This document shows, in pieces, positions 6,011 through 38,902 of a stretch of DNA of 39,766 nt. The notes beneath the pieces are model-generated. The model had not been told where the DNA came from and did not search any database. It was given only the letters and a program-made list of their open reading frames with translations. Each line of letters begins with the position of its first letter. Position 1 is the stretch's first letter. A program made the translations under genes and the position numbers. This DNA comes from Desulfobacula sp. (GTDB taxonomy: Bacteria; Desulfobacterota; Desulfobacteria; Desulfobacterales; Desulfobacteraceae): positions 1 to 39,766 of the forward strand of contig JANQML010000186.1 of the NCBI GenBank assembly GCA_028280105.1, in the 5' to 3' direction.

Positions 6011-6793
6011 TTATTTTGCCAGATCCAGCAACTTTTGAGTGACCTGTTTGAGTTCCTCGGGCATGGCGGCTACATCGTCAAAGGGCCTTGACCCGTCTCT
6101 GTCCGAGGCCGTTATCTCATCCACTTCAGGTATATACCCTAAAATTTCATAATCCGGCATGCTTTCACGGATCAGTTGTCTGTCTGCTTCGGATCTGATC
6201 CGGTTTCCGAGAATAAGAATCTTTTTAATCCCGATATCCCGGCCCAGTTTTTTGATTTTATCCGCGGCCACCCGGCTGCGTTTTCCCGGGTTCACGACGA
6301 TTATCAGGGCATCCACAGAACCGGATGTGGCTCTTCCAAGATGCTCGACCCCGGCTTCCATATCCATGACCACCACCTCGTTTCTCGCAAGAACCAGGTG
6401 ATTCATCAATGCCTTTAAAATCGTTGACTCCGGGCAGATGCAACCGGAGCCTCCCTGCTGGACCGTGCCCATGACCAGAAGCCTGACCCCGTCTTTTTCA
6501 ATGGAGAACCGGTCGGGAATATCGTCGACCTTTGGATTCAGAGTAAAGAATCCCCCCATGGTTCCGGGGGTTGCACCGGTGCGCTCGGCGATCAGATCGG
6601 ATAATTCCGAGACCGGTGTGATGGGTTCAGTCTCATCAATGCCGAGACCGGCTGCCAGATTGGCCACCGGATCCGCATCAATGGCGATGACTTTGGTATC
6701 TCTATTTAAAGCGGCAATGGATCTTGCAATCAGGGCGGTCAAAGTGGTTTTCCCCACCCCGCCTTTTCCGCCGACAGCTATTTTTAAACTCAA
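6011..6793 (-). CDS. cooC: CooC-type carbon monoxide dehydrogenase nickel-insertion ATPase
   Basis: A 260-residue MinD/NifH-like ATPase. The deviant Walker A motif GGKGGVGKTT is at residues 8-17, AIDADP follows at about 37-42, and GCICPES contains the Cys-X-Cys pair (Cys118 and Cys120) that in CooC binds metal at the dimer interface. VVVMDMEAGVEHLGR is the expected Walker B/switch region. CooC uses ATP hydrolysis to mature the nickel-containing C-cluster of CO dehydrogenase. Some paralogues (AcsF) serve the A-cluster of acetyl-CoA synthase, so which enzyme it serves is not certain. It starts 13 bases after the stop of the 103-residue unknown gene and is the last gene on this strand before the convergent regulator. 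Confidence 0.93.
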   Translation of the reverse strand: MSLKIAVGGKGGVGKTTLTALIARSIAALNRDTKVIAIDADPVANLAAGLGIDETEPITPVSELSDLIAERTGATPGTMGGFFTLNPKVDDIPDRFSIEKDGVRLLVMGTVQQGGSGCICPESTILKALMNHLVLARNEVVVMDMEAGVEHLGRATSGSVDALIIVVNPGKRSRVAADKIKKLGRDIGIKKILILGNRIRSEADRQLIRESMPDYEILGYIPEVDEITASDRDGSRPFDDVAAMPEELKQVTQKLLDLAK

Positions 6794-7306: not shown

Positions 7307-8221
7307 TTAAATTTCAAGCCACGAGTCAGAGTACAGGGCTTCGCCCATGATGACCTTATAGGTTTTTGCATAATCCTGTAATTCTTTGCTCAGACCGTCG
7401 ATATCCGGTGTATCCCCGTCCATCATGCCCCAGATCAGACCGGTAATGTCGTCGCGTTCTCCTTTGGCTATGGCTGTCAGTTGTTTGTCCAGCGGATCGG
7501 CAATGACGGATTTCATACCGTATTTCCACAGCATCACCATGTAGGTCTGGTTCAGAATACCCCGCAGGTGCTCCGGCGGTCCGTTTGAAATATTGGAAAG
7601 GCCACAGGTGGATTTGGCTCCCGGAGCCATATCATCAAGCATCATCTGGAAATTCATAAGGCTCATCAGCTGCTGCTGCTGAATATTAACAGGGGTAACA
7701 ATGCCGTCCACCCAGATTCTCTCATTTTCAACGCCTGCCTCATTGGCAAAATAAATCAGCTCAACCGCAAGGGCCGCTCTTTCGTTTTCATCCCGTGGAA
7801 GTCCGTCCGGGCCCCACATCAGGGCAACGAAATCCGCATCATATTCAACAGCCAGGGGAACCATTTTTTCGTATCTTTCCGGGCGGGCCATGATAGAGTT
7901 GATAATATGGGGTTTGTCAGCCGGTTTACAGACTTTGAGACCGGCTTCAATGGCCTCAATGTTAGAGGTATCCAGAAGCAGGGGCATTCCCGGAACCGCT
8001 TCCTGGACCACGTTTACCACCCATGGCATCAGCTCTGTACCGAATTTTTTGGCCGGCCCCAGGTTGATGTCGATATAATCCATGCCCAACTCTTTCTGAC
8101 GAACCACCTCTTCCTGAATGGGATCTGGGTTCCGTTTTGCAGGGTCAGGCTCTTTGAACTCTTTTCCGATAATCCTGGAAATAACGTTCAGACTTTCTCC
8201 AAAGAGAATCATGTTCTCCAT
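7307..8221 (-). CDS. acsE: Methyltetrahydrofolate:corrinoid/iron-sulfur protein methyltransferase
   Basis: A 304-residue pterin-binding TIM-barrel protein. Diagnostic stretches are FGESLNVIS at residues 7-15, DYIDINLGPAKK at about 49-60, LLLDTSNIEAIEAG and CGLSNISNGPPEHLR. The conserved Asp and Asn of pterin-binding methyltransferases are in DINLG and SNISN. AcsE moves the methyl group between methyl-THF and cob(I)amide of the AcsCD corrinoid protein, linking the folate and carbonyl branches of the Wood-Ljungdahl pathway. The length is close to characterised AcsE (about 262) with some extension. It follows acsC on the same strand, across an 85-base gap containing a perfect 12-bp hairpin, and is the last gene before a terminator. 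Confidence 0.93.
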   Translation of the reverse strand: MENMILFGESLNVISRIIGKEFKEPDPAKRNPDPIQEEVVRQKELGMDYIDINLGPAKKFGTELMPWVVNVVQEAVPGMPLLLDTSNIEAIEAGLKVCKPADKPHIINSIMARPERYEKMVPLAVEYDADFVALMWGPDGLPRDENERAALAVELIYFANEAGVENERIWVDGIVTPVNIQQQQLMSLMNFQMMLDDMAPGAKSTCGLSNISNGPPEHLRGILNQTYMVMLWKYGMKSVIADPLDKQLTAIAKGERDDITGLIWGMMDGDTPDIDGLSKELQDYAKTYKVIMGEALYSDSWLEI

Positions 8222-8306: not shown

Positions 8307-9647
8307 TTATTTGGTTTTAAGAAACGCCGGCAAATGGGCCGCTTCTCTCGGTCCGACGGTAATGGTCCATCCGGGGAGTTCTTCTTCAATGTCACCGGCA
8401 ATGGCGGCGGCATAACCCGGAATGATCAGTTCGGTGTGTTTCACCTTGTCCATGATACCGCTTTTTTTAATGAACATACCCACGTCATCTCCACCGAATT
8501 TACCGGCTGCCCAGGCCGTCAGTACGGAAAGGCCTTCGGCGTCCTTGATCAGTAACCAGGTCGGCACTTTACTGGCTTCGACCTCACCTGAAACGATAAA
8601 ATAGGTCAGTGCAAAGTTGGTGGTAACCAGCACCGGGGAGTTCTCATCCGGATTTCCGATTTCAAAGATCCCCTCGGTTACCGTCATCGGCCGTTGGGGA
8701 TCGGTATATATGTTAAGCCGTTCCAGCAGAAGCGGAAAAAGCGATTCGGCTGAGAAATCGGACATAACGACGATGCCGCCGTATTTTGCAATCATCATAC
8801 CGGCGATCAGGGTTTCCATATCCAGGTTGGATGCCATCTCACCGGGGAAAGAGATGGTGGGAAAACCCAATGCTTTGTTGGATGCTTTCAGCGCGGCACG
8901 GCGAATGGCCACCTGATCTTCCAAAGCCTGTTTGATCTCTCTTGAGCCCGAATCAAGAACAAGGTCTTTCAGGCCCATGCCGGTGAGCTTTTCCGTCAGC
9001 GGCTGGAGCGCTTCAACCGAGTCTGCCTTAACAGCCAGAGGCAGATCATTGTCCAGGGCCAGTGCACCCATCGCGTCTGCATTGGCTTCGGTTGCCGCAT
9101 AAAGAAGCGGGCGTTTGAACGCGGTTACCTCCACGGCGGCTTTCATGGCGTCCACATCTTCGGTCATGAGAATCAGGTTAAACTCTGACTCTTTTGCAAT
9201 CTTTTCTGCAACCGCGGCAAATTTATCGGCACCGCCGCCAGCATCTTTAACAGCCAGGAGTTCGGGGCGAAGGTTTAATCCCACCCGTTCGTACTGGAAT
9301 GCATTGTATTTTTTTAAGCTTTTATCCAGGTCTGCCGCATCCATATCAGAGGATACGGTGGCGGCCAGAACCGTTGGATTGAAAAACGTTTTTTCATGTC
9401 TGAAAAGAACGGTTTCGCCGCCTGTTGTCGTTTTTCGAACCCCTTTACCCAATGCGACCGGGCGAATCGGGGGGGCGGATGCTTCTGCCAACTGTTCTTT
9501 GGCTTCGTCGGAAACATAGGGACAGCTGTCCAGTTCCGCTTTACCGGATGCAAGGTTCATTGCAAAGGCAAGACAAGTCGGGACGCCACACTCTTTGCAA
9601 TTGGTTTTCGGTAGGAGTTTGAATATCTGTATACCGGTTAATGCCAT
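8307..9647 (-). CDS. acsC: Corrinoid/iron-sulfur protein large subunit (AcsC, CdhE-like)
   Basis: A 446-residue protein. The N-terminal domain carries the low-potential 4Fe-4S site CKECGVPTCLAFAMNLAS followed by a fourth Cys in LDSCPY (about residues 17-42). The middle is a TIM-barrel-like domain, and the C-terminal part (from about residue 310) is the B12-binding domain. The length matches Moorella AcsC (446). With AcsD it forms the heterodimer that carries the methyl group on its cobalt; the iron-sulfur cluster reactivates oxidised cob(II)amide. The ATG at 9647 follows an AAGGAG ribosome site. It lies between acsB and acsE in the operon. Confidence 0.95.
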   Translation of the reverse strand: MALTGIQIFKLLPKTNCKECGVPTCLAFAMNLASGKAELDSCPYVSDEAKEQLAEASAPPIRPVALGKGVRKTTTGGETVLFRHEKTFFNPTVLAATVSSDMDAADLDKSLKKYNAFQYERVGLNLRPELLAVKDAGGGADKFAAVAEKIAKESEFNLILMTEDVDAMKAAVEVTAFKRPLLYAATEANADAMGALALDNDLPLAVKADSVEALQPLTEKLTGMGLKDLVLDSGSREIKQALEDQVAIRRAALKASNKALGFPTISFPGEMASNLDMETLIAGMMIAKYGGIVVMSDFSAESLFPLLLERLNIYTDPQRPMTVTEGIFEIGNPDENSPVLVTTNFALTYFIVSGEVEASKVPTWLLIKDAEGLSVLTAWAAGKFGGDDVGMFIKKSGIMDKVKHTELIIPGYAAAIAGDIEEELPGWTITVGPREAAHLPAFLKTK

Positions 9648-9738: not shown

Positions 9739-11952
9739 TTACCCGACCAGCGGCTCCATGTTCAGTGCCGGATGACCTTTCTCCTGGAGGAACGGGAGAA
9801 TCTCTTCTTCCGTGAGGCCAACGGTTTCATCCGCGATCATGTCATAGAATCCAGGAACGCCCATTGCTTCTCCGCGGGCTTCAATTCTGTCCTTGAGCTC
9901 TTCTTTGAGCATTTTCGGCATCCAGACCATTCTTAACAGCCCGCCGTCACCAAGGATGAATTTACCCTGGGTAATATTGAATTTGGAATGCCCCACAAAA
10001 CCGGGTGACGAGGCCCCGCCGCCCATTACACCGGCCAGTGTGGTGAACTTCATACCGCAGGGGGTATCTCCGGAATAATCCCGGCCCACCGTCATCACCC
10101 CGTTGCATGAGGGCAGCATGGCAGCGCTACATTCGCAGCAGCCGCAGGTGGTCATGGGATCATGAACCATGGAGTAGAAGTTGTAATGCGTCACCGTACC
10201 GCGGCTGGCTTTGTGGACAAAGTCGTTAACCCCTTTCCATTGGCCCAGATTCGGATCGATACATTCGCCCTTTTCAATGGGCTGGTTCGGACCGGTGGGA
10301 TTGATCTCGTAGGATGCTTTACAATCCATCCAGTTGTATGCACCGCACAGACCGGTTCTTTCAGGACTGACGGTACAGACGTGGGACGGTGCAAAGGACT
10401 GGCACAGCGTACAGGAGTAGTACGTCTCAACATCTTCGTCGGTCATGGTGTCGACACGGGCATCACGCACCTGGTAATCCGCCCTGGCGATGGCTGTCAT
10501 CTTTTCAACTTCTTCCGGTTTTGTTAAAAGTGTTACCTGGACTTTATCAACAATTTTGGTGAAATCCTGGTGGAATTTTGCATGGAGGACCACACCGATG
10601 TCCTTAAGGGTAAATCCTTTTTCAATGGCTGCTTTGGAGACACGGACCCAGGAGATGTCCCTCTGTCCGATATGCATTACACCCTGAATGTAGTTGACCA
10701 GGTGATGAATCTGCCGTTCCATGATCGGTTCGAAATCTTCCTGGAATTCACGACCGGCAATCTGTACCTTGATACCTAGTGAGAATGTTTCCCCTTCTTT
10801 GATCGTGTCAAGGTCCGGTCCTTCAACAACGACCTTTCCGTCTTCAATCTCGTTCATTTCGGCCATCTTGACATGCTCGGTGCATTGGGTTTTTCCACCG
10901 CCGCACTGGGCATAGAGGTCCGCACCCCTGACCCGCTCTCCTTCAAATGCGGGACCGAATGAACAGGGGATATCAATTTCAGCCACCTGAACTTTCAAAC
11001 CCCTTACCTCAATGGATTTTTGTACCATTTCATCGTGGGCAATCGGTGCCACAACATGCTCATAGGTACAGATACCGGTGGGTAGAATTTCAGGAATCGG
11101 TGTGTCGGCAATGGTCGGAAAGCCCCAGTTCACACAACCGGCGGCTGCAACACCCCATTCGGTGCCCACATCTCCCAATGCATTTACAAATGCAAATACA
11201 CGGTCTTTATTGTATTTCAGGATGGTTTTGTAGTCGCCGGGCGTAACACCGCCAAATGCCATGGCTGCCCTGTTGGCAAAGCCGAGGGCAAATACGGCGG
11301 AAGAGATGTCCGGACCAAAGGGAACGATCCGCGTGTTCCATCCGATCTGCATGCCGGCATCCAGACATTGCTGGATAACCGTGTTACCGTTGTGGTTTGC
11401 CGCACAGAAGATGTAAAGGGACCGTTTCTGATAATCTTCGACAATCATTTTAGCTGTTTCAGCATCCGGGGCGGCACCCACCATGGCGGCAAAACCCGGG
11501 GCGGAACCGTCAACAAACTCAACCCCTCTTTTTCTTAAAATCGTATCATCGGCAGCACCGACCCAGAGTTTACCGCTTTCAACATCTGGATCTTCCTGGG
11601 CAATATAGAAATCCGGATCATTCAGATAACGGAGTGCCTCGATAATTTCGTAGGAGATAATACCGGCCATACCGGCATCAAGGAGTGGCCCAAGGTACGG
11701 GAGCCAGTTTTTTAACCGGATATGGGGAGGCAACAGCCCCCTGGCAAATTCCAACGGTTTTTTAAGGTCTTCAAGGGTTTCTACTTTAAGACCGGTTAAA
11801 GAATAGATAACCGGCAGAAAGTATGCGGTATTCGGGAATCCGACTTTTGTTGCCGCGTCGTAAGTCTGAAGCGCTTTATTCAGCTGGCCTTCGGCCTGTG
11901 CAACTACTTTGTATCCACCCTGAATGGCAGCAAATGCGATTAATTTTGACAT
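9739..11952 (-). CDS. acsB: Acetyl-CoA synthase, CODH/ACS alpha subunit
   Basis: A 737-residue protein, close to Moorella AcsB (729). The A-cluster ligands are all present with the Moorella spacing: Cys514 and Cys517 in SCTLCQSFAP, then Cys526 in SHVC and Cys536 in GLCGAYNW for the 4Fe-4S cluster, and the Cys603-Gly604-Cys605 motif in TTCGCCEC for the distal nickel. The enzyme joins a methyl group from the corrinoid protein, CO from the CO dehydrogenase and CoA into acetyl-CoA, or runs in reverse during acetate oxidation. The N-terminal domain that contacts the CODH and lines the CO tunnel is present, so this is the bacterial rather than the archaeal CdhC-type enzyme. It lies between cooS and acsC. 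Confidence 0.97.
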   Translation of the reverse strand: MSKLIAFAAIQGGYKVVAQAEGQLNKALQTYDAATKVGFPNTAYFLPVIYSLTGLKVETLEDLKKPLEFARGLLPPHIRLKNWLPYLGPLLDAGMAGIISYEIIEALRYLNDPDFYIAQEDPDVESGKLWVGAADDTILRKRGVEFVDGSAPGFAAMVGAAPDAETAKMIVEDYQKRSLYIFCAANHNGNTVIQQCLDAGMQIGWNTRIVPFGPDISSAVFALGFANRAAMAFGGVTPGDYKTILKYNKDRVFAFVNALGDVGTEWGVAAAGCVNWGFPTIADTPIPEILPTGICTYEHVVAPIAHDEMVQKSIEVRGLKVQVAEIDIPCSFGPAFEGERVRGADLYAQCGGGKTQCTEHVKMAEMNEIEDGKVVVEGPDLDTIKEGETFSLGIKVQIAGREFQEDFEPIMERQIHHLVNYIQGVMHIGQRDISWVRVSKAAIEKGFTLKDIGVVLHAKFHQDFTKIVDKVQVTLLTKPEEVEKMTAIARADYQVRDARVDTMTDEDVETYYSCTLCQSFAPSHVCTVSPERTGLCGAYNWMDCKASYEINPTGPNQPIEKGECIDPNLGQWKGVNDFVHKASRGTVTHYNFYSMVHDPMTTCGCCECSAAMLPSCNGVMTVGRDYSGDTPCGMKFTTLAGVMGGGASSPGFVGHSKFNITQGKFILGDGGLLRMVWMPKMLKEELKDRIEARGEAMGVPGFYDMIADETVGLTEEEILPFLQEKGHPALNMEPLVG

Positions 11953-12056: not shown

Positions 12057-14078
12057 TTAGCCTTCAAGGGCCTGACGATCCGCCATATCCATCAGAACAC
12101 GTTCTCTTGCCTTATCAATACCCAGTTCTTTTCTCTTTTTATCGATATGGGCAATCATCAGGTGGGCATGTTTGATGGGGTCGGATTCAACCGCCCACAT
12201 ACCGCCGTAGATTTCTTCCATATCTTTGGTCAGGTGATCCTTGAATACCGGCGCACCTTCGATGGGCAGATAACCGCCGAATACGGTATAAATACCGCTG
12301 CAGACAACATATTGACCGATGGCAATGGCTTTTTCACTCATCCATTCGGGCGCGGAACCGGCCACCGGCCAGTCGCAAAGATCCTGGCCCATGCCCCCGG
12401 CGTTGACAACCTGGATGGCGGCATTTAAAATCCTGGTGTTATCCACACAGGAACCCATGTGGAGAATCGGCGGGATTCCCACTGTCTCGCAGATTTCAGC
12501 AAGGCCGGGACCGCAGTATGCTGCCGCAGAGTCGGGTTGGAGCAGACCTGCCATGGCGGCCGTGATACCCCCGCAACCGGTGGTTAAGACGATAACGTCG
12601 TTTTTAATCAATTCTTTGATGACGGTCAGGTGGGCGTTATTGTGCTGCTGCCTGGCGTTGTTGCAGCCGACAATGGCGGCAACACCGCGAATACGACCGT
12701 TGATCATATTATCGTTTAACGTGTAGTAGGTCCCTCTGAAGGTTCCGCCCAGATGGTATTTAACGGATTCGACCGAGAATCCGGCAACCTGGGTCTCTTT
12801 TTCAGGTGGAATCTGTATCTCGGCATCCCGGTTGTTATAGTTTTCAATCGCCATTGTCACGATCCTGATGGCGTCTTCCATGGCATGGTGTTCGTCAAAT
12901 TCAATGTGATGGACATTGGGTTGCTCCATTTTTGCCATGGGATGGGTGGTAATCAGTTTGGTATGAAAACATTTTGCAACATTGGCAAGGTTCTGGAAAA
13001 CGCATTGGACATCGACGACCATTGCATCGCAGGCACCGGTTATGATGGCAAGTTCCTGCTGGAGAAAGTTCCCTGCATTGGGCACCCCGTGCCTTTGAAG
13101 AACCTCATTGGCCGTACAGCAGATACCGCTGAGCTGAATGCCTTTTGCCCCGACTTTCTGGGCCAGTTCAAGCATTTCAGCCGTCTGGGAAGCGGCCACG
13201 ATCATTTCGGAGAGCACCGGCTCATGCCCATGAACGATGATGTTGACATGGTCTTTTTTCATCACGCCGAGATTGGCTTCGGAGATCAGGGGAGAGGGGG
13301 TTCCGAACATGACGTCCTGAAGATCGGTGGCGATCCAGGAACCGCTCAAGTCGGCCAGGGATGCCCTGGCAGCCTGCCGCATGATATTTTTATAATCCTG
13401 GTCCACACCGATGTGGGTTCGGTGCATGATATCGACAATCTCCCTGTCAATGTTCCTGGGCAGAATCCCCAGTTTTTTCCACCGTTCATATCTCACTTTT
13501 GGAAACCGTTTCGGGACCAGGGTCGTGCCACCGGTTTTACCCCATTCGGCCAGGGCGACATCCGCCACTTCAACGGCAATTTCGTCAATGTCTCTGTCAA
13601 CCATTTCTCCGTCAACTTCAACCTTTGTCTCCACACCGTAATCCGGTGCAATGGCCAAAAGCTTGATCGGGTCTTTAATTTTATAATCTTTTGTTTCTTT
13701 ATTGGCCGCGGCATGGAATACTTCGGCAACGGTTCGTCCATGGTCAGAATGTGCTGCAGCGCCTGCGGCGATCATTCTGGCAAAATTTCTTGCGGCAATC
13801 GTGTTGGCTGTTGCTCCGCACAGACCTTTCCTGGTATCTTCACCCTCTATCCCTGCTTTGGGGAGGGGGAGGCGGCAAGGGCCCATGGCGCAGTTTTTAC
13901 AGCATATTCCCTGAATACCGATATTACATTGTTTCATATTCGCGGCGCGGTCAAAGATCGTTTCCACACCCAGTTCATGGGACCGTGTAATCATTTTTTG
14001 AGTTGCAATGTCAACGGATGCTGCTATCGGATCAGCCAGTTTCGGTGCTTTGGCTGCTTTTGTCTTTTTTTCTGCCAT
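12057..14078 (-). CDS. cooS: Ni-dependent carbon monoxide dehydrogenase, catalytic subunit (CooS/AcsA)
   Basis: A 673-residue protein, nearly the length of Moorella AcsA (674). The N-terminal motif CNIGIQGICCKNCAMGPCRL provides ligands for the D- and B-clusters. The C-cluster ligands can be followed in order: His in IIVHGHEP, then Cys in LSGICCTANEV, VDVQCVFQNL, VGCNNARQQH, LTTGCGG and HMGSCVDNTR. The enzyme interconverts CO2 and CO with ferredoxin-level electrons and feeds CO to AcsB through a tunnel. It sits between acsD and acsB, and cooC lies at the end of the cluster. All cluster ligands appear intact, so activity is expected. The ATG at 14078 follows a GGAGG ribosome site. Confidence 0.97.
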   Translation of the reverse strand: MAEKKTKAAKAPKLADPIAASVDIATQKMITRSHELGVETIFDRAANMKQCNIGIQGICCKNCAMGPCRLPLPKAGIEGEDTRKGLCGATANTIAARNFARMIAAGAAAHSDHGRTVAEVFHAAANKETKDYKIKDPIKLLAIAPDYGVETKVEVDGEMVDRDIDEIAVEVADVALAEWGKTGGTTLVPKRFPKVRYERWKKLGILPRNIDREIVDIMHRTHIGVDQDYKNIMRQAARASLADLSGSWIATDLQDVMFGTPSPLISEANLGVMKKDHVNIIVHGHEPVLSEMIVAASQTAEMLELAQKVGAKGIQLSGICCTANEVLQRHGVPNAGNFLQQELAIITGACDAMVVDVQCVFQNLANVAKCFHTKLITTHPMAKMEQPNVHHIEFDEHHAMEDAIRIVTMAIENYNNRDAEIQIPPEKETQVAGFSVESVKYHLGGTFRGTYYTLNDNMINGRIRGVAAIVGCNNARQQHNNAHLTVIKELIKNDVIVLTTGCGGITAAMAGLLQPDSAAAYCGPGLAEICETVGIPPILHMGSCVDNTRILNAAIQVVNAGGMGQDLCDWPVAGSAPEWMSEKAIAIGQYVVCSGIYTVFGGYLPIEGAPVFKDHLTKDMEEIYGGMWAVESDPIKHAHLMIAHIDKKRKELGIDKARERVLMDMADRQALEG

Positions 14079-14153: not shown

Positions 14154-15716
14154 TCAGCTTGCACGTTTATGAATTCGGTCGAGGTTTTCGATAATACGTT
14201 CAAGTTCTGTTTTATTGGTTTTTGCCGGGGTTTTCTTGACCGCTTTTTTAGGAGCCGCCGCTTTTTTAGCAGCAGCTTCGGCTCTCTGGGCCGCCCGCTT
14301 TTCTTTCAGCTCCGCTTCAGCGGCTTCGCGGCTGGCCTGTTCATCGGCTTCTGCCTGTTTGGCCGCCTCTGCTTTGGCTTTGGCCTCTGCTTCCGCTTTA
14401 GCTTTGGCCTCTGCTTCAGCCTTTGCCTTGGCCGCTGCTTCCGCTTTTGCCTTTGCTTCGGCATCTGCTTTGGCCTTTGCTTCAGCCTCGGCCTTGGCTT
14501 TGGCTTCTGCCGCCGGGTCAACAGCAGGTGCTGCCGGTGCGGTTTTTTCCGGTGCCGCCTCTTTTTTCACCGACGCCTCTTTTTTCACCGGTTCGGCCTT
14601 GGGTTCCTCTTTCTTGGCCGGCGCTGCTTTTTTAGCCGGTGCCGCCTTTTTGACCGGCGCTTTCTTCTTTTCTTCTTCAATCGTCAGATCAACATCCGGT
14701 GACATGCCTGCAAAATCAATTTCCACATCATCCAGCCTTTTGGTGATGGGAGCGACATCTGCCGCAGAACCGCCATCTGTAAGAAGATCGATAAACGATT
14801 GCGTCAGTTGAATGGATTCGGGATGGCGCATGATAAGAAGACTGGAGCCCGACAGCAGGTAGGAGACGGCTCCCACCGCTTCCATCAGGATGGCCCTTCT
14901 TTCGGGGTCACCCAGTTCCGGTGCTTCTTCAACGCTGAGTTTGGCTTCTTTGCATTTCCAGATTTCGTTACCCAGGTTGTTGATCATTGGATTCTGGAGT
15001 TTATCGTCTCCCTGGGTCATGGCTGCCTGGGACAACCGTTCCATAACCGAATAGGTATACTCAAGTCCGTAACCCAATCCGCCGGTGGTCGGGTCAACGA
15101 GTACTTTGTCCAGGGAAACCCCCAAGTTTTCGAGTAAAATGTTAACCTGTTTGGCCAGGTTGACATCGATGGGAGAAGAGGAGATGATGGTATGGTTATA
15201 TCCCATGGCGGCCGCACCAATCCCTTTATGGTTCTTTTCTTCCACAGGTCCGACGGTCAGGTTATAACCCTCACATACCTCACATACTTTTTTTAATACG
15301 TCTTCATCTTTGGCAGGAACCGTACATCCCCATACAATCAGGGGGACGTCAATGGTGTCCAGTACTTTCTTCACGGTGGCAGCCGCCTCATCCGCACTGG
15401 CGTCCCGGTCGTTGGGGTCTGTACTTTTTAACTGAAGGACAATGGCGTCTGCACCAAAATCATCCACACATTTTTTAGCCCAAGCCGCAGGGTCGTCCAG
15501 CACACCCTCAAAGGGTGCTTTCGCAGCATCAGGCCAATCCGCAGGCTCCATATCCCAAATCTCCATTGCGATGACGGGCTTATTTGGCATATCCCCTTCA
15601 AACTGGTGAAACGGATAACTGGTTTGACCGCCGACGGTAAGGGCATTATCACCATTGCCGATGGTAATACCTTTTATACTGCCGGCATATGTTTCTTTGG
15701 TAATTTCAAATCCCAC
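14154..15716 (-). CDS. acsD: Corrinoid/iron-sulfur protein small subunit with long Ala/Lys/Glu-rich C-terminal tail
   Basis: A 520-residue protein. Residues 1 to about 345 are a normal AcsD/CdhD TIM-barrel subunit: ITIGNGDNALTVGG near the N-terminus, PFEGVLDDPAAW, IVWGCTVPAKD, LVDPTTGGLGYGLEYTYS and LIMRHPES. Characterised AcsD proteins end near this point (about 310-320 residues). The remaining 170 residues are a low-complexity tail: Lys/Ala/Pro-rich (PVKKAAPAKKAAPAKK), then six repeats of the type AEAKAKAE, then a charged helix and a Lys-rich end finishing TELERIIENLDRIHKRAS. The composition predicts a long single helix. The start is GTG at 15716 with GGAGG at 15722-15726. It is the first gene of the acs operon. 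Core function is certain; the tail has no known function and may tether or space the methyl carrier. Confidence 0.93.
   Translation of the reverse strand: MGFEITKETYAGSIKGITIGNGDNALTVGGQTSYPFHQFEGDMPNKPVIAMEIWDMEPADWPDAAKAPFEGVLDDPAAWAKKCVDDFGADAIVLQLKSTDPNDRDASADEAAATVKKVLDTIDVPLIVWGCTVPAKDEDVLKKVCEVCEGYNLTVGPVEEKNHKGIGAAAMGYNHTIISSSPIDVNLAKQVNILLENLGVSLDKVLVDPTTGGLGYGLEYTYSVMERLSQAAMTQGDDKLQNPMINNLGNEIWKCKEAKLSVEEAPELGDPERRAILMEAVGAVSYLLSGSSLLIMRHPESIQLTQSFIDLLTDGGSAADVAPITKRLDDVEIDFAGMSPDVDLTIEEEKKKAPVKKAAPAKKAAPAKKEEPKAEPVKKEASVKKEAAPEKTAPAAPAVDPAAEAKAKAEAEAKAKADAEAKAKAEAAAKAKAEAEAKAKAEAEAKAKAEAAKQAEADEQASREAAEAELKEKRAAQRAEAAAKKAAAPKKAVKKTPAKTNKTELERIIENLDRIHKRAS
14367..14510 (-). repeat. 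Six 24-bp tandem repeats encoding AEAKAKAE octads in the AcsD tail
   Basis: Read on the minus strand, 144 bases encode six consecutive octads of the form A-E-A-K-A-K-A-E, with single substitutions (one D for the last E, one A for the first E). A degenerate seventh (AAKQAEAD, 14343-14366) follows. Synonymous differences between units show that the array is not a very recent duplication. Confidence 0.9.
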
Positions 15717-15855
15717 TTTTACCTCCTAAGATTAAAGAATTATGAGTTGGGGGGGGTATAAGATTGAACTGATAGGTGGCTATCAGAAGAGAGAATGACT
15801 GATATGGAACAGCAGAAAGAGGTTCAGCTGGCACAACTCTTAATTGTTTATCCAT
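15706..15855 (-). CDS. Candidate 49-residue small ORF ahead of acsD
   Basis: An ATG at 15855 has an AAGGA site seven bases upstream and opens a frame beginning MDKQLRVVPAEPLSAVPYQ that runs to a stop at 15706, overlapping the acsD start by 11 bases. The position and overlap would fit a leader or translationally coupled small protein. The sequence resembles no family I know, and composition is not clearly coding, so it may be chance. The frame is open for 13 further codons upstream, to an ATG at 15894 with no convincing ribosome site. Confidence 0.25.
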   Translation of the reverse strand: MDKQLRVVPAEPLSAVPYQSFSLLIATYQFNLIPPPTHNSLILGGKSGI

Positions 15856-34341: not shown

Positions 34342-36224
34342 ATTTTAGTGAAATAAAAAAGCGGGCAGACGAAGAATGGCGCCAATTGCAGGAAAGTGAC
34401 AAACCAACGCTTTATATCGGTGCCGCAACCTGCGGCCGCTCTGCCGGTGCATTAGATGTAAGAATGTCCTTTGAAAATGCGCTTTCAGAAAAAAACATTG
34501 ACTACAATGTAGTTGAGGTCGGCTGTTTGGGACCCTGCTGGGCCGAACCGCTGATCAGTGTCCAAAAACCCGGCGGCCCTAATATTTTCTATCGCAATGT
34601 CACACCCAAAATTGCCGCTGAAATTGTGAACGAATACGTTGCCGGTGATGATCCCCTGCCCAAATATGCCTTGGGACTTGTGGGTGATAAAAAAGGGTAT
34701 GATATCCCGGAACTGTGGGAGCTGCCCCCTTTCAAAACACAGGAACGGATTTTATTCAGAAACTTCGGTTTTATCGATCCTACCAATATCAATCACTACA
34801 TTGCCAACGACGGTTACAGCGGACTGCAGAAAGCCTTGTCCATGAAACAGATGGACGTGGTGGAAGAAGTGAAAAAATCCGGTCTGCGCGGCCGGGGTGG
34901 CGGCGGATTCCCGGCCGGCCGGAAATGGGAAGCAGGCCTTGTGTCCAAAGAAAAGATCAAATACGTTGTCTGTAACGCGGATGAAGGGGATCCGGGAGCG
35001 TTTATGGACCGTTCCGTTCTGGAGGGTGAACCCCATTCCGTTCTGGAAGGCATGATCATTGCCGGCTATACCATCGGCGCCCAGGTCGGTTATATCTATG
35101 TAAGGGCGGAGTATCCCCTGGCGGTTCAGCGGCTGCAGAACGCCATCAAACAGGCCAATGAGATGGGTTTTTTGGGTAAAAACATTCTTGGCAGCGGGTT
35201 TGATTTTGAGATCCGGATTTTCCAGGGTGCCGGCGCCTTTGTCTGCGGTGAATCAACCGCCTTAACCCTGTCCATTGAAGGCAAAAGGGGAATGCCAAAG
35301 GCATCTCCCAGGCCCCGGACCACAGAAGAGGGTCTTTTTGACAAACCCACCCTGCTGAACAATGTCAAAACCTTTTCATATGTTCCCCAGATCATCAACA
35401 ACGGCGGAGAATGGATGGCCCGGATCGGTACGGAGAAATCAAAGGGTACGGCCGTATTTGCCCTCACCGGCATGGTGAACAATTGCGGGCTGATTGAGGT
35501 GCCCATGGGAATGACCATTCGGGAGATCATCTATGAAATCGGCGGCGGTATTGTTGATGACAAGCCGTTTAAGGCGGTTCAGACCGGCGGTCCTTCAGGC
35601 GGGTGCCTGCCTGCTGATTTTCTGGATACCCCGGTTGACTATGACTCGCTTTTAGAGGCCGGTTCCATGATGGGATCCGGCGGTATGGTCATCATGGATG
35701 AAAACACCTGCATGGTGGAAATCGCCCGGTATTTTCTGGATTTCACCCAGAAAGAGTCCTGCGGCCAGTGCACCCTGTGCAAACTGGGAACCAAACAGAT
35801 GCTGGATATCCTGGAAGATATTGTGGCCGGTAAAGGCCAGCCCGATGATGTCAGGATGCTGGTGGAGATCGGCGAATCTGTCAATGAAGGCTCCCTGTGC
35901 GGTTTAGGACAGGCTGCAGCCAATCCCGTACTGACCACCATTAAATATTTCCAAGAAGAGTATGAAGCTCATATCAATGATAAAAAATGTCCGGCCCTGG
36001 CCTGTACGGAATTAATCTCGTACCAGATTGATCCTGAAAAGTGCGGCGGTTGTACGATCTGTGCCAAGATATGTCCGGTGGATGCCATCACCGGGGTTAA
36101 AAAAGAGGTTCATATTCTTGACCAGGAAAAATGTGTCAAGTGCGGCATGTGTTTCGAAAAATGCCCGAAGAAATATCGCGCAGTGGAATGCGTCTCTCTC
36201 GGCATACAAGAAGGAGGTGAATAG
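34338..36224 (+). CDS. NuoF-like NADH/FMN subunit of formate dehydrogenase, with extra ferredoxin domains
   Basis: A 628-residue flavoprotein. An N-terminal thioredoxin-like 2Fe-2S domain (about residues 25-85, ATCGRSAGA and GCLGPCWAEP) is followed by the NuoF core. GLRGRGGGGFPAGRKW binds NADH, CNADEGDPGAFMDR binds FMN, and ESCGQCTLCKLGTKQM binds a 4Fe-4S cluster. The C-terminus has two further 4Fe-4S motifs, CGGCTICAKICPVDAITG and CVKCGMCFEKCPKK. This architecture is that of HydB/HndC and of NAD-linked and electron-bifurcating formate dehydrogenases. It would exchange electrons between the FdhA iron-sulfur chain and NAD(H), possibly with ferredoxin. It overlaps the NuoE-like gene by 4 bases and its stop overlaps the FdhA GTG by one base. 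Confidence 0.95.
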   Translation: MNFSEIKKRADEEWRQLQESDKPTLYIGAATCGRSAGALDVRMSFENALSEKNIDYNVVEVGCLGPCWAEPLISVQKPGGPNIFYRNVTPKIAAEIVNEYVAGDDPLPKYALGLVGDKKGYDIPELWELPPFKTQERILFRNFGFIDPTNINHYIANDGYSGLQKALSMKQMDVVEEVKKSGLRGRGGGGFPAGRKWEAGLVSKEKIKYVVCNADEGDPGAFMDRSVLEGEPHSVLEGMIIAGYTIGAQVGYIYVRAEYPLAVQRLQNAIKQANEMGFLGKNILGSGFDFEIRIFQGAGAFVCGESTALTLSIEGKRGMPKASPRPRTTEEGLFDKPTLLNNVKTFSYVPQIINNGGEWMARIGTEKSKGTAVFALTGMVNNCGLIEVPMGMTIREIIYEIGGGIVDDKPFKAVQTGGPSGGCLPADFLDTPVDYDSLLEAGSMMGSGGMVIMDENTCMVEIARYFLDFTQKESCGQCTLCKLGTKQMLDILEDIVAGKGQPDDVRMLVEIGESVNEGSLCGLGQAAANPVLTTIKYFQEEYEAHINDKKCPALACTELISYQIDPEKCGGCTICAKICPVDAITGVKKEVHILDQEKCVKCGMCFEKCPKKYRAVECVSLGIQEGGE

Positions 36225-38902
36225 TGGCGGGCAATATAAATCTAATCATAAACGACCAAAAGGTTGCTGCCCCGGAAGGTTCGACCATTCTAGAGGCGGC
36301 GCTGAGAAAAGGAATATATATTCCGCATCTGTGCCATCATCGTGAGCTCTTGCCTGTCGGCGCCTGCCGCCTTTGTCTTGTTGAGCTCCAGGGAGAATGG
36401 AAAAAGACCGTTATCTCCTGCAAAACACCGGTGAAAGAAGGCATGGTAATTAAAACCGAAACCCCGGAGATCAGACAGACCCGTCAAGTCTCCCTGGAGC
36501 TTCTGGTGGCTGATCATGATACCGACTGCCTGGCATGTGACCAGAACACCAAATGCGGACTGCAGCGGGTAGCCGACCATGTGGGTATGGATAAAAAACG
36601 GATGGGCCGGTTAAAATCCCGTGAAAACAGATTGCCCATTGACGACTCCAACCCGTTCTTTGAGTTTGATCCCAACCGGTGTGTTTTGTGCGGCATCTGT
36701 GTGAGAACCTGTGATGAGTTGCTGAATATCAATGCCATTGATTTTGCTTACCGGGGTCTTGGGACCAAGATTGCCGGATTTGGGGATAAGTCAAGGGTTG
36801 AATCCAACTGTGAGTCCTGTGGTGAATGCATTGTCAAATGCCCTGTGGGCGCCTTGACTGAAAAAGGGGCTGAAAATCCAACACACCAAATCAAGACGGT
36901 CTGTTCTTTCTGCGGATGCGGATGCGGTCTCTACCTGGGGGTACGGGACAATAAACTGGTCACGGCCAAGGGTGATATCAACAGTCCAGCCAATAAGGGC
37001 AGGCTGTGTGTCAAAGGGCGCTTCGGCTATAAATTTGTTAATAGCGACGAACGCCTGACATCCCCGTTGGTGAAAAAAGACGGAGAATTTGTCGAAGTGG
37101 AATGGGATGAAGCCCTGGATCTGATTGCAGACAAGTTCTCCAAAACCAAGGGAGATCAGTTTGCCACGATCGCATCGGCAAAATGCTCCAATGAAGATAA
37201 TTTTGTTGCACAAAAATTTACCAGAGCAGTGATGGGTACCAACAACATTGATCACTGCGCACGATTGTGACATGCTCCTACTGTGGCCGGTCTGGCCACT
37301 GCACTGGGAAGCGGCGCAATGACAAACTCCATTCATGAACTGGCTGATGCAAAAGCCATCCTGGCGGTGGGAACCAATACCACTGCCGCTCACCCGATTA
37401 TTGCCCTGCCGGTTAAAAAGGCGGCAAAAAACGGTGCCAAACTGATTGTTGCAAATCCCAAAGAGATCGATTTGTGCAAGTTTGCCGATATCTTTCTGCA
37501 GCATAAACCGGGAACCGATGTGCCTCTGCTCATGGGTATGGCAAGGGTGATTATCGACGAAGGACTTCAGGACGATACCTTTATAAAAGAACGGTGCGAG
37601 GATTTTGACGCGTTTAAGGACTCGTTAGCCGGATTTGATCTGGAGACTGTTGAAGAGATCACCGGCGTGCCCAAGGAGAAAATTGCCGAGGCAGCCAGGG
37701 TATACGCAACCCAGGATCCGGCTTCCATCATCTATTGCATGGGAGTTACCCAGCATACCCATGGAACAGATAATGTCTGGGCCATCAGCAACCTGGCTCT
37801 GATCACCGGTAATTTCGGAAAACCCTCTTCAGGGGTCAATCCCCTGAGAGGCCAGAACAATGTTCAGGGTGCCTGCGATATGGGTTGTCTGCCCAGTGTT
37901 TACCCGGGTTACCGGAGTGTCACCCTGCCTGAGGTCAAAGCAGAAGTTGAAGCGGCATGGGGTGTTGAACTCAATGGTGAGGTTGGTAAAACCCACACTG
38001 AAATATTTGATGCCTGCTATAACGGGGAGATCAAATCCGTGTACCTGATCGGTGAAAATCCGGTGATCAGTGAAGCCAATGCCAACCATGCGATCGAGGC
38101 CATGAAAAAGACCGATTTCCTGGTCGTCCAGGATATATTTATGACCGAAACCGCAGAACTGGCTGATGTGGTTCTGCCATCCACCACCTTTGCGGAGAAA
38201 GACGGCACCTTCACCAATACCGAACGCCGGGTTCAGCGTGTCCGTAAAGCCATCGAGCCTGTGGGAGCCATCAAACCGGACTGGTGGATCACCTGTGAAA
38301 TCGCCAAACGGCTCGGCGGCAAAGGGTTTGATTATGAAGGCCCGGAACAGATCATGGCTGAGATCAACGCCGTGCAGCCCGCTTATAAGGGCATCACTTA
38401 TCCACGCCTTGAAAAAGGAACCCTTCAATGGCCTTGTCCTGCTGAAGACCATCCGGGAACCCCGTTTCTGCACGCTGAAAAATTCGGCACCCCTTCAGGC
38501 AAAGGCAAGCTGATACCGCTTGAATACAGAGCATCTGCAGAGCAGACAGATGATTCGTATCCTCTGATCCTGACCACTGACAGAAGCCTGTTCCACTTCC
38601 ACGGTACCATGACACGGAGAGTTTACGGTCTCAATGAACTGGATAGTGAAGAACGGTTGAAAATTAATCCGATTGATGCGGAACGCTTTGGTATCGAAGA
38701 CGGCCAAAGCGTCAAAGTGCTTTCACGAAGGGGGAATGTAGAGGTGAGGGTACTGGTAACGGATGTATGCCCCGTGGGCACCGTATCCTTAACCTTCCAT
38801 TTCAGTGAAACTCTGACCAACGTGCTCACCTGCTGTGAACTGGATCCTGTTGCCAAAACACCAGCCACAAAGGTTTGCGCGGTTCAGATCGAACCGGCTT
38901 AA
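36224..38902 (+). CDS. fdhA: Selenocysteine-containing formate dehydrogenase catalytic subunit (FdhA), UGA at codon 349
   Basis: One 892-residue protein interrupted by an in-frame TGA at 37268-37270. The first part is NuoG-like: a 2Fe-2S domain (GACRLCLVELQG), a His/Cys-ligated cluster (HDTDCLACDQNTKCGLQ), two 4Fe-4S motifs (CVLCGICVRTCDELL, CESCGECIVKCPVGAL) and the molybdopterin-oxidoreductase 4Fe-4S motif CSFCGCGCGLYLG. The frame then reads NIDHCARL-Sec349-HAPTVAGLATALG, the exact context of the Sec/Cys that binds Mo or W in formate dehydrogenases. A SECIS-like hairpin follows. The rest carries the molybdopterin domains, ending in the dinucleotide-binding domain with LILTTDRSLFHFHGT and VSLTFHFSETL. 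It interconverts formate and CO2. The start is GTG at 36224 behind AAGGAGGTGA. With the two upstream genes it forms a soluble NAD-linked complex that may supply or consume formate for Fhs. Confidence 0.96.
37268..37310 (+). promoter_or_regulatory. UGA selenocysteine codon and bacterial SECIS hairpin in fdhA
   Basis: After TGA (37268-37270) comes a perfect stem-loop GTGGCC-GGTCT-GGCCAC (37283-37299). The loop bases GGTCT lie 19-23 bases after the TGA, the same distance and same loop bases as in the known E. coli fdhF SECIS element, which SelB recognises. A short lower stem (TCC 37276-37278 with GGA 37307-37309) may extend it. Confidence 0.9.

Follow-up and report, generated by a model that had tools for sequence, protein, structure and literature searches.

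The solved structures of AcsD/CfsB (4djd, 2h9a and 9fzy), which we take to come from Moorella, Carboxydothermus and Clostridium autoethanogenum, have chains of 309–323 aa without a tail, and a solved complex of this tail-less form with CODH/ACS exists (9fzy, going by its title). Carriers on tethers are known from the 2-oxoacid dehydrogenase E2 proteins, in which Ala/Pro/Lys-rich swinging arms allow the carrier to reach one active site after another within a single machine. The alpha subunit of CoFeSP presumably corresponds to AcsC/CfsA and the beta subunit to AcsD/CfsB. According to the accessible part of PMC12289521, the corrinoid sits in the C-terminal domain of the alpha subunit, which in the model brings it to cluster A, and the beta subunit contacts the N-terminal domain of ACS. 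AcsD is therefore not the corrinoid carrier, and its description as the mobile methyl carrier in an earlier note on this DNA has to be dropped. Neither an AcsD tail nor an AcsD-CODH fusion was found described in the part of the literature searched, which lay outside subscription papers and bioRxiv; the accessible text of PMC12827605 names AcsD, and the words fusion, fused, C-terminal and tail do not occur in it.

The window, i.e., the whole 39,766-nt stretch of Desulfobacula sp. DNA analysed here, contains a CODH/ACS operon with the order acsD-cooS-acsB-acsC-acsE-cooC on the minus strand (Table 1). Its acsD starts with GTG, is preceded by AGGAGG at 15722–15727 and has no internal stop codons. 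The product belongs to the CdhD/AcsD family (NCBIfam NF003377, 635.5 bits with a cut-off of 527; Pfam PF03599, 7.3e-43), and a structure comparison of the core shows the AcsD fold. The part aligned to solved AcsD stops at about residue 314 and not near 345, where the earlier note had placed the end of the core. The tail of ≈170 residues described there is real and absent from the solved AcsD chains, but the part beyond the core amounts to ≈206 residues (315–520) when the connector (315–345) is included. Residues 346–520 and the stop codon are encoded at 14154–14681.

Table 1. Features of the acsD gene, its protein and the surrounding operon in the window.
Feature	Position	Strand	Description
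acsD	14154..15716	-	520 aa, CFeSP small subunit with C-terminal tail; Pfam PF03599, NF003377
AcsD core, residues 1–314	14775..15716	-	Fold of solved AcsD
Connector, residues 315–345	14682..14774	-	Kept in relatives (alignment); past the PDB-aligned part, which stops at 312
Lys/Ala/Pro-rich linker, residues 346–400	14517..14681	-	Predicted disordered; pLDDT <50 at 348–388 and 390–401
Predicted continuous helix, residues 401–487	14256..14516	-	AlphaFold2; i,i+4 charge pairs
Six octad repeats, residues 403–450	14367..14510	-	TRF and codon comparison
Conserved end motif TPAKTNKTELERIIENLDRIHKR, residues 496–518	14163..14231	-	Two alignments; proposed CODH-docking peptide
cooS/acsA (CODH)	12057..14078	-	Next gene downstream of acsD; Pfam PF03063, 6.3e-167; proposed partner
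acsB (ACS)	9739..11952	-	Pfam PF03598, PF19436, PF18537; alternative partner
acsC	8307..9647	-	Pfam PF03599 and PF04060; partner subunit of AcsD
acsE-like methyltransferase	7307..8221	-	Pfam PF00809
cooC/acsF-like ATPase	6011..6793	-	Pfam PF01656

The residues A, K, E, P, and D make up 82% of the tail (346–520) vs. 37% of residues 1–345. The AlphaFold2 helix that follows the linker comprises 87 residues, which would give ≈13 nm at 1.5 Å per residue; its block pLDDT is 58 at 401–410 and afterwards 71–87. A second, short helix is modelled at 504–515 (block pLDDT 73 and 68). The six octads, whose number the earlier note had given correctly, read AEAKAKAE, AEAKAKAD, AEAKAKAE, AAAKAKAE, AEAKAKAE, and AEAKAKAE. 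They were reported by TRF with a period of 24, 5.8 copies and 81% matches, and the codon differences between them lie mainly at synonymous positions. An anticorrelation between linker and helix lengths was discarded, since a boundary set at the last Pro/Gly alone yields such an anticorrelation if the total is fixed.

Residues 404–490 contain 25 pairs of opposite charges at i,i+4 vs. 8.9 ± 2.4 after shuffling, a number reached by 0 of 5000 shuffles, and the helix has one pair of like charges at this spacing vs. 8.4 ± 2.4. Judged from its sequence, the charge spacing is the pattern of a single alpha-helix of the ER/K type. A long charged helix with an amphipathic end helix might instead drive self-association of CFeSP through helix pairing or clustering. 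We find this quite improbable, as the opposite charges at i,i+4 and the almost complete lack of hydrophobic residues in the octads resemble an isolated single helix, and self-association leaves the link between end motif and cooS (see below) unexplained. The earlier note had compared the helix with TolA domain II. The long helix is reproduced in the model, and TolA domain II is likewise a long Ala/Lys/Glu-rich helix, but the tail reaches just 20.7 bits with the NCBIfam TolA profile NF007065 (cut-off 213), which places it outside that family. The likeness is thus compositional, without a sign of common descent, and the tail is encoded in a CODH/ACS operon. No Pfam family was found in the window tail at E-values up to 10.

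Residues 503–518 have an amphipathic moment of 0.78, which was reached by 2 of 2000 shuffles; together with the short modelled helix this agrees with the short amphipathic terminal segment predicted in the earlier note. The net charge is +5 at both 346–403 and 491–520. A Lys-rich linker with an amphipathic end could therefore be thought to bind a membrane or nucleic acid. This is hardly credible, given a net charge of −1 in the octad part and +3 at 462–490, and given that the end motif was not found in other proteins of the 58 genomes searched and tracks cooS.

Relatives were searched in 97 genomes, the window's own included, and a match was found in 77. A complete attached tail is present in 66 of the 97 genomes, with core and tail in one frame in 65 (one of these, G063, has a run of N within the linker) and with a contig-cut 5' end in one (G048). 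The other matching genomes comprise three with a separate tail gene, six in which the match is broken by contig ends, one with a tail-less AcsD (G080), and one (G064) whose short match, lying in a frame of 150 codons, we take as low complexity. The layout is thus common in relatives and not peculiar to the window genome. Like the author of the earlier note, we know of no description of the architecture, in our case from the literature searched. The intact homologs also exclude a frameshift or assembly error near 14700, which the earlier note had named as a possible refutation.

A comparison of AcsD lengths across the phylum had also been proposed there. AcsD with a tail as in the window (type A) is 519 ± 8 aa long in 132 distinct proteins, and tail-less AcsD is 314.6 ± 1.5 aa long (n = 21). 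In the wider phylum, 257 of the 395 genomes searched gave AcsD-like matches. Among the 150 matches listed, out of a larger total, 52 have frames of 490–600 codons, two are fusions, 91 are below 400 codons (at least one of them, G184, contig-cut), and five are intermediate. The intermediate frames comprise two with a stop inside the match, which are hence tail-less (G446 and G284), one of type D (G478), one that is contig-cut (G289), and one that is probably cut as well, its match beginning just 205 bases away from a contig end (G232).

Three further tail types could be distinguished. Type B (519 aa, n = 7) has the same linker and octad layout but a different end (..AGPDxxYILRxLxRWRLRG..), type C (504 aa, n = 6) is unrelated and ends in ..LRYWYSExYGSEKRKKPA, and type D (440 aa, n = 5) has an Ala/Pro linker and a helix. 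Five tails of other types than the window's gave nothing above cut-off with Pfam. The ends of other tails are less amphipathic than that of the window, the moment being reached by 31 (type D, G478), 267 (type B), and 696 (type C) of 2000 shuffles; for the linkers of the AcsD-CooS fusions described below the counts are 185 (G404) and 9 (G122) of 2000. A tree of AcsD cores (83 rows, bootstrap not fully settled) has a branch (97/90) with types A and B and the split forms on one side and types C and D and the fusions on the other; tail-less AcsD occurs on both sides.

Loss of the tail was considered for family f24, which has a short AcsD in the order of the window (G080, G443, and G462). The two of these proteins that are included in the tree group with other tail-less families, and replacement therefore fits better than loss. 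The G080 locus (L239, C43:6500–20000) has the order fhs-acsD-acsB-acsC-acsE without cooS. No match to TIGR01702 (CODH) was found anywhere in this genome, which is rated 100% complete; either its ACS has no CODH beside it in the genome, or the assembly has a gap.

The tail ends in a conserved motif with the consensus T-A-A-x-x-Q-K-x-x-L-E-K-I-x-E-x-L-D-R-I-H-K/R-R. In a comparison of 48 proteins whose endings could be aligned, 1126 of 1128 pairs had a pN lower than pS, with a median ratio of 0.44 (the pairs are non-independent), and by this codon comparison the motif is under purifying selection. The pattern H-[KRG]-[RKI] occurs within the last 35 residues of 105 of the 132 type-A proteins. The others include some strongly diverged ends and a sub-lineage ending in MTAAKTQKSxLSKFKKIRR, which adjoins cooS. 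A profile search of 58 genomes gave 41 matches with E ≤ 3.8e-10, all of them in AcsD frames or in detached or contig-split tails, and the next-best matches had E-values of 0.14 or worse. The idea that the motif is a general targeting tag was not supported by this distribution.

Drift of the linker and octad sequence, the tail-less relatives and four loci that hold linker and octads without the motif would all suit a repeat expansion that is close to neutral and serves no specific role. Such an explanation is highly improbable in view of the purifying selection on the motif and the standard deviation of 8 aa in length among 132 proteins; moreover, the tail is kept as a separate gene in some genomes, and other lineages have other long tails.

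The gene next to acsD is cooS in 120 of the 132 type-A loci and acsB in six, with no labelled gene in the other six. Scored with a profile made from 37 rows, to which the acsB-next loci contributed none, all 120 cooS-next tails reach at least 30.1 bits (median 73.6). The acsB-next tails score −1.3 (L077), 1.8 (L090), 2.4 (L095), 3.2 (L065), 41.1 (L067), and 75.6 bits (L159), and the four lowest scores of all 132 loci are among them. By sequence, the motif is lost in four of these six loci, altered in one and intact in one. The core pattern of the motif is present in 110 of 120 cooS-next vs. 1 of 6 acsB-next loci (Fisher p 7e-5, ancestry ignored and the acsB-next loci being few), ten cooS-next tails likewise failing the strict pattern. 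The motif losers belong to five families at separate places in the tree. As four motif-less tails retain the linker and the octads, there may be a further reason for the tail besides CODH.

CooS proteins adjoining type-A tails are 70.5–90.9% identical to that of the window (54 proteins). In five of the genomes with acsB-next loci (G200, G198, G129, G095, and G087), the full-length CODHs are located elsewhere and are 44.7–51.8% identical to it; G198 additionally contains a fragment of 71 residues. The six acs loci without cooS (L159, L065, L067, L077, L090, and L095) are from genomes having only CODHs of the ≈50% kind or lower. We had predicted that the usual CooS would be found elsewhere in the genome of L159 (G501), and this failed, its best CODHs being 50.4% and 29.6% identical to the window CooS. 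The intact motif of L159 is thus either a counterexample or the result of a recent loss. Two genomes with intact tails (G502 and G503) contain the usual CooS together with a second CODH of the ≈50% kind, and this second CODH is therefore a plausible stand-in once the usual one has been lost.

A link between cooS and the mere presence of a tail was not supported, since the next gene is also cooS in 12 of 20 loci picked for a short AcsD (acsB in three, none labelled in five, with L260 contig-cut). One short AcsD (L241) lies beside a CooS 67.8% identical to that of the window, and CooS of the ≈50% kind adjoins tail-less AcsD in L246, L257, and L259. The number of CooS residues before the first cluster cysteine has a median of 51 beside type A (n = 116) and 53 beside type B (n = 4), compared with 41 beside tail-less AcsD (n = 12, range 36–56) and 43 beside type C (n = 4). 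This longer N-terminal arm is a possible lead to a docking site, confounded by ancestry and by guessed start codons.

Three genomes (G033, G042, and G047, one of them matching D. autotrophicum HRM2) have an AcsD of 429–433 aa with a different C-terminus. Directly downstream lies a gene of 151–154 codons that starts with MAIDLFA and finishes with octads and the same end motif, and the gene order is acsD, tail gene and then cooS. The three split forms make up one group (100/93) nested within type A, and the tail was therefore detached from an attached ancestor and then kept. The NF003377 profile (432 positions) covers these AcsDs to their end (profile 1–431), whereas it covers the window protein only to residue 448; the split-group C-terminus also gives a TIGR03980 match (0.0033). 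The tail genes (L051–L053, from G047, G033, and G042, respectively) begin with repeats of DLFAADEPK or DLFGDAPK. In the AcsDs that go with them, the C-terminus carries another short segment (..GIDLAALLQKRGC..KLTLEQVIQKLNS). Mutual binding of these two new termini might substitute for the lost covalent link.

Direct fusion of AcsD to CODH was also found. Seven of the 18 genomes searched in family f100, including G495, which is assembled in two contigs, have an AcsD frame of 1108–1150 codons running into CooS, and a further fusion occurs in G122, the sole genome examined for family f72. The fusion lineages are separate in the tree, with f100 at 100/100 and G122 next to tail-less AcsD at 92/85 (not starred). 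The fusion loci are L199–L200 and L231–L238, with the order fusion-acsB-acsC-acsE in L231, L237, and L238 and fusion-acsB in L236. One fused protein matches both PF03599 (CdhD) and PF03063 (Prismane), and a fused protein was modelled as an AcsD fold, a mostly low-confidence stretch at ≈321–440 with one weak helix, and then CODH. Family f100 also has free AcsDs that end in a helix similar to that of the fused linker. The free copy in G197 lies ≈10.6 kb from the fused AcsD, is inverted and 95.8% identical to it over 1111 bp, and has unlike upstream DNA. Genes similar to those in the interval between the two copies (L236, G197 C64) recur in G487 (L262, C57), on a contig with an AcsD start at either end. 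The inverted, near-identical cores and these contig ends make gene conversion and a collapsed assembly likely.

As two lineages have AcsD and CODH joined through a long linker and the motif has decayed at most loci whose genomes lack the usual CODH, we think that the tail is probably a leash with a docking peptide (496–518) that binds CODH. A tether to CODH/ACS, one of the roles suggested in the earlier note, is accordingly the best reading, with the fusions and the motif decay pointing to CODH. The fusions belong to tail type D and not to type A, which we count against this reading, and confident docking of the tail was not seen in the AlphaFold2 models of the window AcsD and the fused protein. 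A tether could also dock elsewhere, be it on ACS, on the methyltransferase AcsE, on the ATPase for maturation, on an activator of the corrinoid or on an enzyme of folate metabolism: acsB, acsE, cooC, fhs, and folD share the neighbourhood, and L159 retains the motif without the usual CODH. We regard such a dock as unlikely, since CooS is the only fusion partner of AcsD seen, and since loss of cooS is the change that accompanies motif decay, with acsB, acsC, and acsE retained or at least acsB adjoining, as it does in all six loci.

For a leash docking on CODH, the disordered linker (346–400) and the ≈13 nm single alpha-helix (401–487) would carry the amphipathic peptide to the CODH (CooS/AcsA) encoded next door. 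The leash would keep AcsC-AcsD near its acceptor ACS, which itself sits on CODH, and AcsC-AcsD would swing between ACS and the methyltransferase rather than diffuse freely, the benefit presumably being a raised local concentration. The geometry of the published CoFeSP-ACS model is compatible with such a leash. Unlike the E2 arms, the window leash would belong to the subunit that is not the carrier, and it has a long helix and a motif at its end. More tentatively, and close to an even call, the phylum may have leashed its corrinoid protein, which would normally diffuse, to CODH/ACS repeatedly, by docking tails (types A and B), the C and D tails, a tail gene in trans and fusion in two lineages, with loss of CODH leading to decay of the docking peptide. 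These arrangements would together correspond in function to the five-subunit complex of archaea.

The tail-less, split, fused and motif-less forms are natural controls that make free diffusion vs. a tethered carrier directly testable, and a leash predicts a docking site on CODH. The natural AcsD-CODH fusions could be used for structural work and as gas-fermentation enzymes.

Apart from the operon, the window encodes a formate dehydrogenase catalytic subunit (36224–38902, plus strand) interrupted by TGA at 37268–37270 (..DHCARL-TGA-HAPTVAGLA..), a context that we take to be the usual place of selenocysteine in this enzyme. No SECIS element was matched by Rfam at the gathering score. The ORFs on either side, 36224–37270 and 37283–38902, each match portions of the molybdopterin oxidoreductase family.
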